Source of the DNA: Ignavibacteriales bacterium
GTDB taxonomy: Bacteria > Bacteroidota > Ignavibacteria > UBA10030 > UBA8401
Direction of reading: 5' to 3'
Assembly (NCBI GenBank): GCA_016182545.1
Contig: JACPGG010000114.1
Location: 1-32,660, forward strand
DNA length: 32,660 bases
A model generated the notes under the pieces. It ran no database searches. It was not told the DNA's origin and saw only the letters and a list, made by a program, of their open reading frames with translations. Positions 26,900 through 32,660 of the stretch are shown piece by piece. Position 1 is the stretch's first letter. Each line of letters opens with the position of its first letter. Made by a program: the position numbers and the translations under genes.

Positions 26900-29044
26900 C
26901 TACTTACTCGTCATCACGTACACCCCATCCCACTCCTTGCCGGGGGGATTCTTTTTGCATTCTTCGCATCGTTCAATATACATTGCGGACGCGTAATCCT
27001 TTTCATTCAACTTCAACACCGTTCGGAACATCGCGATCGCATCGTTCCAATGCTGTTCGCGGTATAATTTCAAACCGGACTCGAAGGTCTGGACGATCGT
27101 GAGGCGCTCTTCCGATATCTCGCTTTTTCTGCAGAACACCTCATAGATCTTGATCGGGAGTTTCTTCCCCTTCACGCGGATCAGATCCATTTCGCGCAAT
27201 AAAAATTCATCGAGCACCTGTTCGTTCACTGTCGACTCGCTGATCATCACCGAGGTGCCGTAGTACTTGTTCACCCCTTCCAGTCGCGACGCGAGATTCA
27301 CTGTATCGCCGATGACGGTATATTCTTTCTTCGTCCTGCCGCCGATGTAACCGACAACCATATTTCCGCTGTTGATACCGATACGCGTAGAAAAGACCGG
27401 TTCCCCTCTCTCGCGCGCTGCCTTCGTCATGTTATAAACAGTCTGTGAAAATTCAAATGCTGCGCGCACGGCATGTATGCGGTGATTCGGATTCTTGAGC
27501 GGAATGCCGAACTGCACCATCACTGCATCGCCGATGAATTTATCGATCGTCCCCTCATGCTTAAAGAAGATGTCGCTCGCCGTGGAAAAATAATTGTTCA
27601 GGAACTCTACCAGTTCTTTCGGTTTTTTTGTTTCGGAGATCGATGTGAATCCTTCGATATCCGAGAACATGATCGAGGCATCGACCTCCTCGCCGCCGAG
27701 TTCAACTCCTTCCGGATTCGCGCTCAACTGTTTGACGATATGCGGATTGACGAACTGTCCGAAGATCTTCTGTATCTGCCGTTTGCTTCTCCCTTCCGTT
27801 GCAAAGTTCCAGGCGACCGAAACGATATACGTGAGCATCGCCGAGGTTACCGGAAAGACCGCTTTCAGCCAGATCAACTGGTGCGTGAAAAGCTGATTAG
27901 AAACGAGAAGGAATAGTGCGATCACCACAAGTACTCCCACGGTGCTTGTCACAATGTTCTCATTGTAGTTCGAAAGGAGCGACACCGCGATCGCGATGAA
28001 GATGCAAATAAGCAGCAACAGGAAGAACGGAACTTCTTGAATAAAATGATTCTGCAAGAAATTACTCAATGCCGTTGCGTGAATCTCGACTCCCGGATAC
28101 GGTTCAAGGTATGTGAACGGCGTCGGACGGAGATCGAGCAGTCCCGGCGCGTTGGAGCCGATGAAAACAATTTTGTCTTTGAATATGCCTGCGGGAACAT
28201 CGGGCGTCATCCCCTGTAATTCTTTCATCGCCGACACGACAACAGAGTGGATCGAATAATATTTGAAGACGCCATCCGGTCCACCCCGTCCGTACCAATA
28301 GATCAAGTATGGAGACGAGACAGTCCGGTCGATCGATGATTCCTGACGGAACAGATCGTGATAGATCGAGAATGATAATGCATGCAATTGCTTTCCGTGA
28401 AGTTCATAGACAAGCGGCACCCTTCTGCACACACCATCTTCGTCGGGAATAAAATTTACCACCCCTATCCCTTTTGCACCTTCCTGAAACGGGATCAACG
28501 GTGCAAATGTCTTGTCAAAATGATATTGTTGCGTTACAGGGAGATCGGTTGTATGGTCCGGAAATTTTATCAACGTATCTCCCGGCTGATCTTCCTCGTA
28601 CTGATGCGTCAATTGCGTGGAGAGGAATACATTGCCGGCATTGCGGATCGATTGTGCAAAGAGTGAATCGTTGTCCGCTCCGGATGAGATGACGCGGTCC
28701 TCGTCCGGTTCGTTGAAATGGAAATCATACACGATCGCCTTCGCCCCTCCCTTGGCAAGGTAATCGGTCGTCACGGCATAAAAATCACGGGGCCAGGGCC
28801 AACTTGTTTTGCTGTTGTGTTTGAAGTACTGCAGGCTGTTCTGATCGATCGTGAGGATAACGACCGATGAATCGGGCTTGTGCGAACCTTGCCCGAACCG
28901 GAATTGAATATCGAGAGCATTCATTTCCACACGGTTGCCGACAGGAGACAACGATATCAGCCATGCTGTCATCAATCCGGCAATTGCGGAAAAAACGATC
29001 CGTATCTGTTTCGTAAAGAAAAATTTTTTATGCGCTTCAGACAT
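26900..29044 (-). CDS. CHASE2-domain class III adenylate/guanylate cyclase
   Basis: A 714-residue membrane receptor. After one helix (about 16-32) an extracytoplasmic CHASE2 sensor spans ~35-335, then three helices (about 340-357, 366-384, 394-412) and the cyclase domain. Metal-binding aspartates are Asp462 (MFSDIEGFTSISE) and Asp506 (TIDKFIGDAVM). Lys502 is in the base-recognition place, and VIGDTVNLASRLE carries the Asn583/Arg587 transition-state pair, so the enzyme looks active. A TPR-like tail (FESGLKLYREQHWNDAIAMFRTVLKLN) ends the protein. It probably makes cAMP in response to an unknown signal. Confidence 0.93.
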   Translation of the reverse strand: MSEAHKKFFFTKQIRIVFSAIAGLMTAWLISLSPVGNRVEMNALDIQFRFGQGSHKPDSSVVILTIDQNSLQYFKHNSKTSWPWPRDFYAVTTDYLAKGGAKAIVYDFHFNEPDEDRVISSGADNDSLFAQSIRNAGNVFLSTQLTHQYEEDQPGDTLIKFPDHTTDLPVTQQYHFDKTFAPLIPFQEGAKGIGVVNFIPDEDGVCRRVPLVYELHGKQLHALSFSIYHDLFRQESSIDRTVSSPYLIYWYGRGGPDGVFKYYSIHSVVVSAMKELQGMTPDVPAGIFKDKIVFIGSNAPGLLDLRPTPFTYLEPYPGVEIHATALSNFLQNHFIQEVPFFLLLLICIFIAIAVSLLSNYNENIVTSTVGVLVVIALFLLVSNQLFTHQLIWLKAVFPVTSAMLTYIVSVAWNFATEGRSKRQIQKIFGQFVNPHIVKQLSANPEGVELGGEEVDASIMFSDIEGFTSISETKKPKELVEFLNNYFSTASDIFFKHEGTIDKFIGDAVMVQFGIPLKNPNHRIHAVRAAFEFSQTVYNMTKAARERGEPVFSTRIGINSGNMVVGYIGGRTKKEYTVIGDTVNLASRLEGVNKYYGTSVMISESTVNEQVLDEFLLREMDLIRVKGKKLPIKIYEVFCRKSEISEERLTIVQTFESGLKLYREQHWNDAIAMFRTVLKLNEKDYASAMYIERCEECKKNPPGKEWDGVYVMTSK

Positions 29045-29444: not shown

Positions 29445-29861
29445 CTAGTTGCTTACTTTGATTGCAATCAATTTTAGGATGGTGCCGACATGCGAACGCT
29501 TTTTCACTTCTATCCGGATTCCTCTCCCCTCCGCGTACTTTCTGGCATTCTTCAATTCGGATTTTATTTTTTCCGGCAGGCCGCTCTTTTCCACCTCCCG
29601 CACAGCTTTATCTCCAAAGACGAATGAAAGAATAAAATATCCGTTACGGGCAGAAAAGAAAAAGAGATTTCGCTTCTTGAGGAGCAATTTTAATGTCCAG
29701 CCGATCTTTGAGCCGTAGAATTTCCACTCTTCGATGACGGTACCATGTTCTTTATCAACGGCAGACCGTATCTCTTCCCACAATAAAAATGTTCTACCCA
29801 ATGCTGCAGATAATTTTGCACGATCAGGCATTTCCGTTTTATTTCCGAAAATATTGCTCAC
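29445..29861 (-). CDS. DUF3788 family protein
   Basis: A 138-residue cytoplasmic protein. The pattern ALGRTFLLWEEIRSAV, EEWKFYGSKIGWTLKLLLKKRNLFFFSARNGYFILSFVFGDKAV and AEGRGIRIEVKKRSHVGTILKLIAIK is that of DUF3788, small alpha/beta proteins of the YdhG/DUF1801-like kind. Function unknown. The next gene upstream is the small secreted protein, 30 nt away. Confidence 0.75.
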   Translation of the reverse strand: MSNIFGNKTEMPDRAKLSAALGRTFLLWEEIRSAVDKEHGTVIEEWKFYGSKIGWTLKLLLKKRNLFFFSARNGYFILSFVFGDKAVREVEKSGLPEKIKSELKNARKYAEGRGIRIEVKKRSHVGTILKLIAIKVSN

Positions 29862-29891: not shown

Positions 29892-30149
29892 TTACTGAAG
29901 CTCTTCAACACTGTACGTTCCGTTGATCCGCACCCGTTTCGGCGTGCTTCTGTGACCGACTGAAAATACAAGCGTGTAGCCGTCAGCGATGGGCCAATCG
30001 ATCGCAGTCCAGGTGCCGACCACATTGTCACCCGAATATAATTTCACCGTGTAGGTTTTCGGCTGGCTTTGCGAGAAGGATGTTGTCGTAACGATTGCAA
30101 CGACGGCAAAAATACAGATGGCGGATGCGATGAAGAGTTTGGTTTTCAT
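29892..30149 (-). CDS. Small exported protein of unknown function
   Basis: 85 residues with a clear signal peptide (MKTKLFIASAICIFAVVAIVTTTSFSQS). A ~57-residue mature part, rich in beta-strand-type residues (KTYTVKLYSGDNVVGTWTA, GYTLVFSVGHRSTPKRVRINGTYSVEEL), follows. No family is recognised. It is the last ordinary chromosomal gene before the cassette-like region. Confidence 0.65.
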   Translation of the reverse strand: MKTKLFIASAICIFAVVAIVTTTSFSQSQPKTYTVKLYSGDNVVGTWTAIDWPIADGYTLVFSVGHRSTPKRVRINGTYSVEELQ

Positions 30150-30221: not shown

Positions 30222-30228
30222 GTTAGGC
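30222..30228 (-). other. attC-like R'' half-site at the end of the cassette array
   Basis: GCCTAAC on the minus strand lies 5 nt after the stop of the lipoprotein gene, exactly the spacing seen for the SIMPL gene and site A. No partner R' box is visible toward 29892, so this appears to be a truncated last attC site and marks the left edge of the array. Confidence 0.5.
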
Positions 30229-30233
30229 AGTGC

Positions 30234-30875
30234 TTACTTTAATGAATAAGTTAACAGTCTTCTACTACTACCCAATTTATTGCTGGACGAATATGTATCC
30301 GTTTTTACTATCCCAACGTTTGGATTGAGATAGATCAAATTGTAACCTACCGTGGTGTCTCTAGCTGAATTATAGACTTGATAAGTATGACAGGTAATTT
30401 GAGCCTGATCCACGGTAACTGTGTCTGTCATTGAAGTTAACTTTATTATTGAGCCGCTGTTTACTATTGAATCACCAATGTTCGAAGGATATTTAATTAA
30501 ATGATCAATTGACGGATCTTGATGTGAACCAAATTGTTGACTTAAATACAGGATGTACAGTCCATCAATCCGATTGATATAATAATTTTCACCTGTTATT
30601 TGATGCGATGCACTCAAACTATAGTGTATTGCAAACCATCGTTCATTCCCGATCATAGAATCTCTCACCACAGTCATTGTATCCATTTGAAACGTTGAAT
30701 CAATACTTGGAACACCAAAACTATAATTGGTGCGATATATCCAAGTATTTCCCACTGCCAACGGAAGTATTCCTTCGATGTCATCGTTCGAGGATGTGAA
30801 ATTACTCTTGCAACTACTAAAATTGAGGGCAATAAAAATAATTGCCAATGATGGAATTATGCCAATTGTTTTCAT
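30234..30875 (-). CDS. Cassette lipoprotein of unknown function
   Basis: A 213-residue lipoprotein: signal and lipobox in MKTIGIIPSLAIIFIALNFSSC (Cys22). A domain follows with GILPLAVGNTWIYRTNYSFG and many Thr/Ser-rich beta strands, a look common in small Bacteroidota lipoproteins. A TTG at 30881 is in frame, but ATG 30875 starts the signal properly. There is no clear ribosome site. The gene is visibly more AT-rich than the act/cox genes. It starts 19 nt after one attC-like site and ends 5 nt before the next half-site, so it looks like an integron cassette gene. Confidence 0.65.
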   Translation of the reverse strand: MKTIGIIPSLAIIFIALNFSSCKSNFTSSNDDIEGILPLAVGNTWIYRTNYSFGVPSIDSTFQMDTMTVVRDSMIGNERWFAIHYSLSASHQITGENYYINRIDGLYILYLSQQFGSHQDPSIDHLIKYPSNIGDSIVNSGSIIKLTSMTDTVTVDQAQITCHTYQVYNSARDTTVGYNLIYLNPNVGIVKTDTYSSSNKLGSSRRLLTYSLK

Positions 30876-30894
30876 ATGCAACTGTTTTTGTGCT

Positions 30895-31113
30895 GGCTAA
30901 CGGACTGGAACTCCGCCATTAGCGTATATGCAGATTCCCGTCAGAATGCAGCCGCACCTGTGTGTTGAAGCACTTCGGTGCGCAAGCACACCTTTTTAAT
31001 CTTATTCGTACTTCCTGCAGTCCCGCGTTGTGTGCGGGAACTGTTTATAATAGAATGATTCTTTTATTTGGTTCGTGCAACATATTGACTTTTTACACAG
31101 TACCTGGTTAGCC
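30895..31113 (-). other. attC-like site A (cassette recombination site)
   Basis: Read on the minus strand: GGCTAAC (31113-31107) at one end and AGTTCCAGTCCGTTAGCC (30912-30895) at the other, the end boxes being complementary. It lies between the stop of the SIMPL gene and the start of the lipoprotein gene. At 219 nt it is longer than typical attC sites. It contains internal hairpins, for example AGTTCCCGC/GCGGGACT near 31019-31042. R boxes have one mismatch to RYYYAAC/GTTRRRY. Confidence 0.6.
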
Positions 31114-31118
31114 AGCCG

Positions 31119-31862
31119 TTATTTTATTTCAAATATTACACGAACTTGACTTGTCACAGAAATTGTTTGTGCGAAAAAACCTGACCCTCTTGTTTCATCA
31201 AAACTATTCGATTCAAATGAATTTGTAGATGGATTAAAAGGATTGGGATACGCCCTTGCGCCACGAATGGCTATATTATTTGACAGCGGTTGATTTTGTA
31301 ATATTTCCTCAACGAATAGGACTTTCCCTATTGTTGCTCCCAATGCTTTTGCAATATCTTCGGCTTTCTCTTTTGCTTTTAGACCTGCTTCAATCCTTGC
31401 TCGACGCCTTAAACCTAATTCATCTTTAAAGGAGAAATTTATTTGCGAAAGATATTCTACTTCGGCTTCACTGATTGTGAATATAATTGATTGTAACAAC
31501 TTAAGACTATCTATTTTAATGGAGGTTTCAATAAGTGCACGATAATCACGATTCGATGAAAGAAAAGATTTATCTCCATAATTTTCACCACTGAAAAACT
31601 CAGAAGTAGATATATTTTTAGACTTAACTCCAAGTCCAATAATTTTATCAGTTAATTCTTTAGTTTTGCTGCCTGCGCTTTCAACTGCTTGACGTAAACT
31701 TGCTCCGACACCTTTTATTCTGAATGAAACAACAGCTTGATCTGCTACTTCTTTCAGCTCAACACTTCCTGTAACAATGAATTGGTTTTGATTTTCTTCG
31801 ACTTTTTGAGCAAATGTAGTTTGAAGTAATAAAAATAAACCTAAAACATATTTGAATTTCAT
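31119..31862 (-). CDS. SIMPL (DUF541) domain protein, cassette gene
   Basis: A 247-residue exported protein. The signal peptide MKFKYVLGLFLLLQTTFAQ is followed by the SIMPL domain: FIVTGSVELKEVADQAVVSFRIKG, the helix SLRQAVESAGSKTKELTDKIIGLGV, KNISTSEF and AGLKAKEKAEDIAKALGATIGKV. Bacterial members are periplasmic; a general function is not known. A surface-loop-like insert reads AYPNPFNPSTNSF, resembling the start of a type IX sorting domain. AGGAGAG lies 6-7 nt before the ATG. The stop is 5 nt before attC-like site A and the start 18 nt after site B, so it forms a complete cassette. Confidence 0.8.
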   Translation of the reverse strand: MKFKYVLGLFLLLQTTFAQKVEENQNQFIVTGSVELKEVADQAVVSFRIKGVGASLRQAVESAGSKTKELTDKIIGLGVKSKNISTSEFFSGENYGDKSFLSSNRDYRALIETSIKIDSLKLLQSIIFTISEAEVEYLSQINFSFKDELGLRRRARIEAGLKAKEKAEDIAKALGATIGKVLFVEEILQNQPLSNNIAIRGARAYPNPFNPSTNSFESNSFDETRGSGFFAQTISVTSQVRVIFEIK

Positions 31863-31880
31863 TTGTCTCTCCTTGAGGCT

Positions 31881-32043
31881 GGCTAACGGACTGGAACTAA
31901 GCCGTGTGGCAACGCTCCAGAGGGTTGATTATAGTTTTAAATTTAAAATGCTGTATCGCAATGTAGTATGTATTTTGATGACTCGACACTCAAAATTTCA
32001 GAGCGTCGGCGGTTGCCACATCGGCTTGAGTGACTGGTTAGGC
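31881..32043 (-). other. attC-like site B (best-formed)
   Basis: On the minus strand it opens GCCTAAC (32043-32037), then CAGTC, then ACTCAAGCCGATGTGGCAAC. It closes with GTTGCCACACGGCTT, AGTTCCAGTCC and GTTAGCC (31887-31881). The arms fold on each other: ACTCAAGCC pairs with GGCTTAGT leaving one unpaired base, as in the L-box bulge of attC sites. The total of 163 nt is somewhat large for attC. Confidence 0.68.
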
Positions 32044-32270
32044 AGCACATTGAGTTTTGCTGACAGTTGAATGTGCGCCGACAATTTAGTTTTGCACAAG
32101 CAACGATGCGCTGTTTGCATTGTTGCGATGTTATTATTGCCGACTGCGCAAGCGAGTTGTCTTTTAACTTGCTTGCGCACGCACTCTGCTGAATGATCCC
32201 GCCGGGAACACCGCCCAACCTTTTGATACAACCAAAACTCAAAGAACAGTTACAACTCGTTGAACATGCT
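32044..32270 (-). other. Non-coding, hairpin-rich cassette
   Basis: The 227 nt between sites B and C hold no credible gene; frames that cross it run into the attC-like sequence. Three stem-loops sit in a row: GCACATT/AATGTGC (32045-32076), GCAACGATGC/GCATTGTTGC (32100-32126, one mismatch) and TGCGCAAGCGAGTT/AACTTGCTTGCGCA (32145-32179, one mismatch). It could be a structured RNA, a promoter cassette, or a decayed gene. Confidence 0.5.
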
Positions 32271-32443
32271 GCCTAACGGACTGGAACTCCGCCATAGGCG
32301 GACAAGTAACCTGCTTTGTAACGCTCCAGAGCGCCGCGACTGTTGATTAATTTGCTGATAAGTATTTTGTTCGTATGTCATGAGTAGAAAACTCAGTTAT
32401 CTCAGTTCACGCGCGGGCGCGGTTGCAACGTCAGAAGTTATGT
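32271..32443 (-). other. attC-like site C
   Basis: GCCTAAC on the plus strand at 32271-32277 followed by GGACTGGAACT gives the R' end (minus-strand AGTTCCAGTCCGTTAGGC). The far end is GTTATGT (32437-32443), preceded by GCGCGGTTGCAACGTC, which resembles the corresponding end of site B (GGCGGTTGCCACATC). The interior repeats AACGCTCCAGAG of site B. The outer box is diverged. Confidence 0.5.
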
Positions 32444-32458
32444 TTAAAAAGTCTACCT

Positions 32459-32522
32459 TGATCTTCCCCCGAAATTGTGGGCATGAGAAAAAGCCATTAT
32501 CTTTGGCAGAAGGAGGTTGACA
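32459..32522 (+). repeat. Left end of an IS3-family element
   Basis: TGATCTTCCCCCGAAATTGT (32459-32478) resembles IS3-family terminal inverted repeats, which often begin TGATC. It is followed by an AAGGAGG ribosome site and the transposase OrfA start. The other end lies outside the window, so no target duplication can be checked. Confidence 0.6.
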
Positions 32523-32660
32523 ATGGAAGGTACAGAGCACAGCAAACGAAAACAATACAACAAGGAATTTAAACTGGAGGCAGTGCGGTTAGCCCTTGAG
32601 AATGGACGTAACGTTGCCTCAGTTGCACGAGACTTAGGGATTAGTCAGAATGCGTTGTAC
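32523..32660 (+). CDS. IS3-family transposase OrfA (5' part only)
   Basis: ATG 8 nt after a strong AGGAGG. The visible 46 residues run MEGTEHSKRKQYNKEFKLEA, then VRLALENGRNVASVARDLGIS and QNALY, the helix-turn-helix start of IS3/IS911-type OrfA proteins, which bind the element's ends. The frame runs off the window. It is on the opposite strand to the cassettes. Confidence 0.9.
   Translation, partial: MEGTEHSKRKQYNKEFKLEAVRLALENGRNVASVARDLGISQNALY

Follow-up and report, generated by a model that had tools for sequence, protein, structure and literature searches.

Organization of the Locus

The analyzed window (the whole stretch of 32,660 nucleotides, contig C174) carries, on the minus strand of its right part, a cyclase gene, two short genes, and a segment at 30222-32443 in which cassette-like genes alternate with attC-like sites (Table 1). 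The 18-nt sequence AGTTCCAGTCCGTTAGSC occurs in three minus-strand copies (30895-30912, 31881-31898, and 32271-32288), with none expected from shuffled sequences; these belong to sites A, B, and C, respectively. Across the whole genome its 16-mer core has 14 matches with at most two mismatches, versus five for the reversed pattern; the matches lie on C174, C152, C102, C12, C31, C191, and C151, and not each of them is an established attC site. Spacing of the genes is regular. The stops at 31119 and 30234 are each separated by 5 nt from the boxes GGCTAAC (31113-31107) and GCCTAAC (30228-30222), respectively, and the start codons at 31862 and 30875 follow an R' box by 18 and 19 nt. The GC content of the segment is 39.0% versus 46.9% for positions 1-30221, where the lowest value for a window of the same length (2222 nt) is 42.5%.

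Table 1. Features of the cassette segment and its surroundings in the window.
Feature	Position	Strand	Evidence
CHASE2/adenylate cyclase gene, distal chromosomal flank	26900-29044	-	Pfam CHASE2 and Guanylate_cyc; orthologues in G001, G003, G011, and G007
DUF3788 gene	29445-29861	-	Pfam DUF3788; between flank and array
85-aa ORF	29892-30149	-	Between flank and array
Half-site GCCTAAC (R''-type)	30222-30228	-	5 nt past the last cassette gene; no R' partner before the next gene
Last cassette gene, lipoprotein-like	30234-30881 (ATG 30875)	-	No Pfam, NCBIfam, or PADLOC match
Site A, attC R'' and R' boxes with an IS1111/IS110-type remnant inside (~30920-31103)	30895-31113	-	IS matches; no L-box stem
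Cassette gene, SIMPL/DUF541 protein	31119-31862	-	Pfam SIMPL, 92 bits
Site B, intact attC, 163 nt	31881-32043	-	R1 188 bits (site B is one of the training sequences); covarying paired stem; fold z = -2.7 against shuffles
Third cassette body	32044-32270	-	No convincing ORF (translations); inverted repeat 32145-32179
Site C, attC whose L'' is broken by an IS end	32271-32434	-	R1 58.7 bits for 32311-32434; 85% against a C152 site over 129 nt
Left end of an IS1111/IS110-type IS (earlier the "CATAAC box", minus-strand reading)	32432-32459	+	28 of 28 nt shared with the G020 element's left end
IS3-type element start, truncated at the contig end; orfA (transposase) from 32523	32459-32660	+	Pfam HTH_Tnp_1, 46.5 bits

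The half-site that had been proposed to close the array is indeed present as a box, but it lacks a partner, and it is a probable remnant of a decayed last attC site. The DUF3788 gene and the 85-aa ORF are absent between the orthologous flanks in two relatives (G001 and G011); they are either part of the flank or decayed cassettes. A homologue of the SIMPL gene, 53% identical, is found at another place in G004, where it is followed by GCCTAACCCAGTC, an R'' half-site. The inverted repeat in the third cassette body is 14 nt long, and this body could encode an RNA.

None of the window cassettes matched a defence family. Elsewhere in the genome, cassette-like genes adjoining attC sites match the defence families AbiJ (C102; L016 17524-18318) and PD-Lambda-3_B (C191; L019 174-713). 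One small gene (NNGNRPKLELNLGQSQQVTLLKPP...) is found both near the attC array of G003 (L154 666-1178) and beside an attC-inserted insertion sequence in G020 (L161 14280-14738).

In a comparison of DnaG with eight genomes outside the order, the best match was to Ignavibacteriales (42%, 500 bits), followed by Calditrichia (375 bits), Gemmatimonas (373 bits), and Chlorobiaceae (356 bits). The uncultured host is thus likely to be Ignavibacteria-like, a label and not an identification, since DnaG is one gene; the FCB-group host proposed earlier is consistent with this ranking among the genomes tried.

Site B and a Lineage-Bound attC Family

Six sites from this genome, site B among them, align over their full length and were used to build the attC model R1. 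Their structure starts with the R''/R' pair (CTAAC/GTTAG), continues as ACT[C]AAGCCG[A]TGTGGCAAC against GTTGCCACACGGCTTAGT, and leaves two bases of the stem unpaired (top strand, C and A; bottom strand, G and T). Class 1 attC sites are arranged in this way. In site B and the five others, the R and L boxes pair and one arm has unpaired bases, and the computed fold of site B agrees with the unpaired L-box base of the original prediction. In the six-site alignment, 96.4% of cells pair and nine of the 23 pairs have changed on both sides, a level reached by none of 500 shuffles; when the partner is slid by one column, pairing falls to at most 43%. Among 35 R1 matches, 95.3% of cells pair and 16 pairs have two-sided changes, although here the alignment was fitted to the structure and is biased towards it. 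Rfam, searched over the region at a relaxed threshold, gave no match and thus cannot test attC sites here.

A search of 60 genomes, including the host itself, yielded at least one R1 match in 34, with arrays among them. Scores outside the training set reach 169 bits in relatives. There are eight sites in approximately 6.6 kb in G003, where the same sites accompany other genes; G031 has 39 matches and G059 has 31. In six distant genomes with similar IntI proteins, R1 found one match, and that a weak one; hence, at this sensitivity the site family is lineage-bound. Its sites have a conserved central region of approximately 100 nt that is common to the order and distinguishes them from those of known sedentary chromosomal integrons. 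Such a region is as expected from the established idea of lineage-specific attC families and models (PMC8352920).

Single attC sites scoring 138-170 bits also occur in genomes of other families: L113 (G037), L116 (G035), and L119 (G023). No integrase over the cut-off was found in G023 or G037. These single sites suggest transfer of cassettes between families.

Insertion Sequence Debris in Sites A and C

Site B is the only intact attC among the three sites in the window. Site A scores 13.5 bits with R1; the R'' and R' boxes are kept and pair with each other, but the L-box stem of an attC is absent. The middle of the site matches the non-coding region of an insertion sequence (IS) in G020 (84% over 95 nt, E 6e-21, and 91% over 33 nt), all matches falling within 30920-31081. 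The length of site A, 219 nt, is thus explained by the IS1111/IS110-type remnant inside it.

In site C, the putative partner box CATAAC turned out to be an IS end. Because 32432-32459 matches the left end of the G020 element at every position, site C is an attC cut at T^CGGCTT. The same 26 nt precede the start of an IS110-type transposase on C31, with the same insertion point (C31:11942), and the left end seen in site C also heads whole IS copies in relatives. The 26-mer common to site C and C31 had been considered as a variant of the R'' box; this candidate was rejected because full IS copies were found. The exact end of the IS3-type element is put at 32459 by inference from the nucleotide sequence. 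At the tail of C152, inspection by eye revealed an R''-like box followed by a sequence like the IS end of site A and then by a sequence shared with the end of the C31 IS110-type gene.

Could sites A and C instead be truly long attC sites that represent a new family, given that the R' box is kept in both and that A also keeps a pairing R'' box? We consider this very improbable, because the interior of A is IS non-coding sequence with no L-box stem, and the left part of C is the IS left end. Of the predicted site lengths of 163-219 nt, the lower one is true of site B and the longer ones reflect IS damage. A new family of long sites, as it had been put forward, therefore gives way to a 163-nt site of canonical R- and L-box layout with excess length from IS insertions. 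The remaining sequence features of the original prediction (the shared end of three minus-strand sites, the gene spacing, the low GC content, and the site B fold) were all recovered. Entry of the IS on the L'' side has very probably cost sites A and C their function.

A hairpin, TCCGCCATAGGCGGA, lies at 32288-32302 within an arm of site C. Short hairpins of this kind (TCCGCC...GGCGGA) are also found at L018 10032 and 11141, L016 17131, and L019 2614, several of them inside attC arms, and may be copies of a small palindromic repeat inserting at such places.

An Integrase and the Other Flank on Contig C152

The original prediction described an array without integrase and suggested a search for intI with its additional domain. 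The window has no intI because the contig ends at 32660, but the same genome encodes a full-length IntI of 326 aa on C152 (TIGR02249, 443 bits versus a curated cut-off of 265). Over 314 residues it can be aligned with 2a3v, an integron integrase of solved structure, and the alignment runs through the region of the extra domain. The gene is divergent from three attC sites recognized by R1; the only candidate trace of attI between intI and the first cassette is a GTTAGGC box (L015:8790). The IntI copy of G003 contains a stop.

With a full integrase beside the same repeats, one repeat per gene in one orientation, and a covarying paired stem, it is hardly conceivable that the repeats are dispersed elements or IS target scars unrelated to integrons, even though IS elements occur at two of the three sites. 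We retain the reading of the window as a piece of a chromosomal integron, which the integrase and the further attC sites in the same genome support.

Comparison with relatives connects the two contigs. In G001 and G003 the cyclase gene is followed by genes for a PDZ protein, a hydrolase, and further proteins that are orthologues of the left part of C152; in G003 one small gene separates the cyclase and PDZ genes. In G011 the cyclase gene adjoins the PDZ gene, and in G007, as judged by eye, a PDZ-like gene. In the host genome the PDZ gene is on C152 and the cyclase gene on C174, and both contigs end in cassettes of matching orientation. Since the two flanks are neighbors in relatives, the integron on C152 most likely has its distal end in the window. 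A search for shared end sequence found no 18-mer common to the contig ends. On C152, the SixA and GppA genes lie between intI and the PDZ gene; the flanks retrieved from relatives contained neither gene, and thus the history of the locus involves more than one insertion.

Sites on other contigs were also observed. C12 (L017 1-1506) and C102 (L016 17040-18491) have attC sites whose upstream side is chromosomal and is not intI; on C12 it consists of dnaG and a cyclase-like gene. The genome thus probably contains further, separate clusters. At least these two contigs, as well as SixA and GppA, count against a single integron, and the simplest reading is nevertheless that C174 and C152 form one.

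The window might also be a separate integrase-less attC cluster (CALIN) and not the end of the C152 integron. A CALIN is defined as a locus that has two or more attC sites but lacks intI; C174 has no intI, but it ends inside the array, and draft assemblies are known to inflate CALIN counts (PMC9024848). C12 and C102 do show that this genome has attC sites with something other than intI on their upstream side. Synteny of the window and C152 flanks in relatives, with an orientation that fits one array, makes a separate cluster unlikely.

An Insertion Sequence That Favors attC Sites

The least ordinary part of the locus is the IS. Whole copies of 1447-1478 bp are present in G020, G005, and G053. 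They consist of a left end CAGAAGTTATGTTTAAAAAGTC, the transposase gene, a long non-coding region (approximately 320 nt or more) past the gene, and a right end GACTTTTTACATAACA, which is followed by GCTTGAGCGACTGG or GGTTGAGCGAATTG, that is, by the L''-R'' side of an attC. The subterminal inverted ends are GTTATGTTTAAAAAGTC and GACTTTTTACATAAC. The G020 transposase is of the IS110-family DEDD type (NF033542, 206 bits versus a cut-off of 140; PF01548 and PF02371 also matched), and the family assignment is made on this copy, the window having only ends and a remnant. PF01548 had no match in the host genome because the IS copies are cut at contig ends.

Nine copies of the left end were found in 98 genomes of the order, and in eight of them one or both sides are clearly attC-like; flanks were judged by eye and without a shuffled control, several being incomplete, and for the ninth copy (G053) only 6 nt of right flank were available. 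This distribution indicates that the IS probably favors attC sites and inserts into the L'' side at T^C.

Within their non-coding region, two elements carry 8-9 nt that are complementary to the right flank of the target and vary along with it: CGCTCAAGC matches the target GCTTGAGCG in G020, and GCTCAACC matches GGTTGAGC in G005. With two cases, the guide complement is a lead and not a result. For the left side of the target, a guide match is clear in G005 only (TCGCTGC), and we make no claim for that side. IS1111 elements have been reported that target attC sites and derive the RNA that guides them from the non-coding region (PMC11187229). The IS described here resembles the members of that group ISKpn4 and ISPst6 (PMC11187229, citing Tetu and Holmes, 2008; Post and Hall, 2009) in its IS110-family DEDD transposase, long non-coding region past the gene, related subterminal inverted ends, and insertion in attC; the likeness is one of these features. 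It differs in belonging to another bacterial group and in insertion in the L'' side at T^C. It is conceivable, at slightly under even chances, that the order harbors an RNA-guided IS1111-type lineage specialized on the L'' side of attC, with the guide RNA following changes of the host attC.

Discussion

Taken together, the segment is highly likely to be the distal end of a sedentary chromosomal integron whose sites A and C were broken by an attC-seeking IS. Of the original interpretation, the integron piece is supported, the new long-site family as stated is not, and the lack of an integrase applies to the window only. In the proposed scenario, one integron would have occupied the region between the cyclase and PDZ genes, its minus-strand cassette genes each having an attC-type site behind. 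IntI is known to recombine attC sites through their bottom strand in its folded form, so that cassettes are inserted, excised, and reordered; the cassettes of the window would then be old ones, far from attI. An IS1111/IS110-type element very probably entered the L'' side of sites A and C, with an IS3 element following at C; the sequence of site B is still intact. We have placed the locus among integrons on the basis of intI and attC; recombination by IntI is predicted.

Complete integrons have been reported from Chlorobi, Ignavibacteriae, and Salinibacter (PMC9024848). Like other sedentary chromosomal integrons (PMC9024848), this one has intI divergent from the cassette array, lineage-specific attC sites, and cassette genes mostly of unknown function. 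Unlike them, its array is broken by IS elements, and it is known here from a fragmented assembly only. Similarly to a CALIN, an attC cluster that lacks an integrase (PMC9024848), it has attC sites on a contig without intI, but synteny links this cluster to an intI-bearing contig.

The locus adds a sedentary integron and a usable site model to the thinly sampled FCB branch, where integrons are known but few. It also demonstrates that what looks like a long attC may be an attC containing IS debris, a pitfall for surveys of such sites. The IS ties RNA-guided IS110/IS1111 transposition to cassette mobility in another bacterial group. If a guided, attC-specialized IS lineage does exist, cassettes in integrons would be repeatedly frozen and arrays split.
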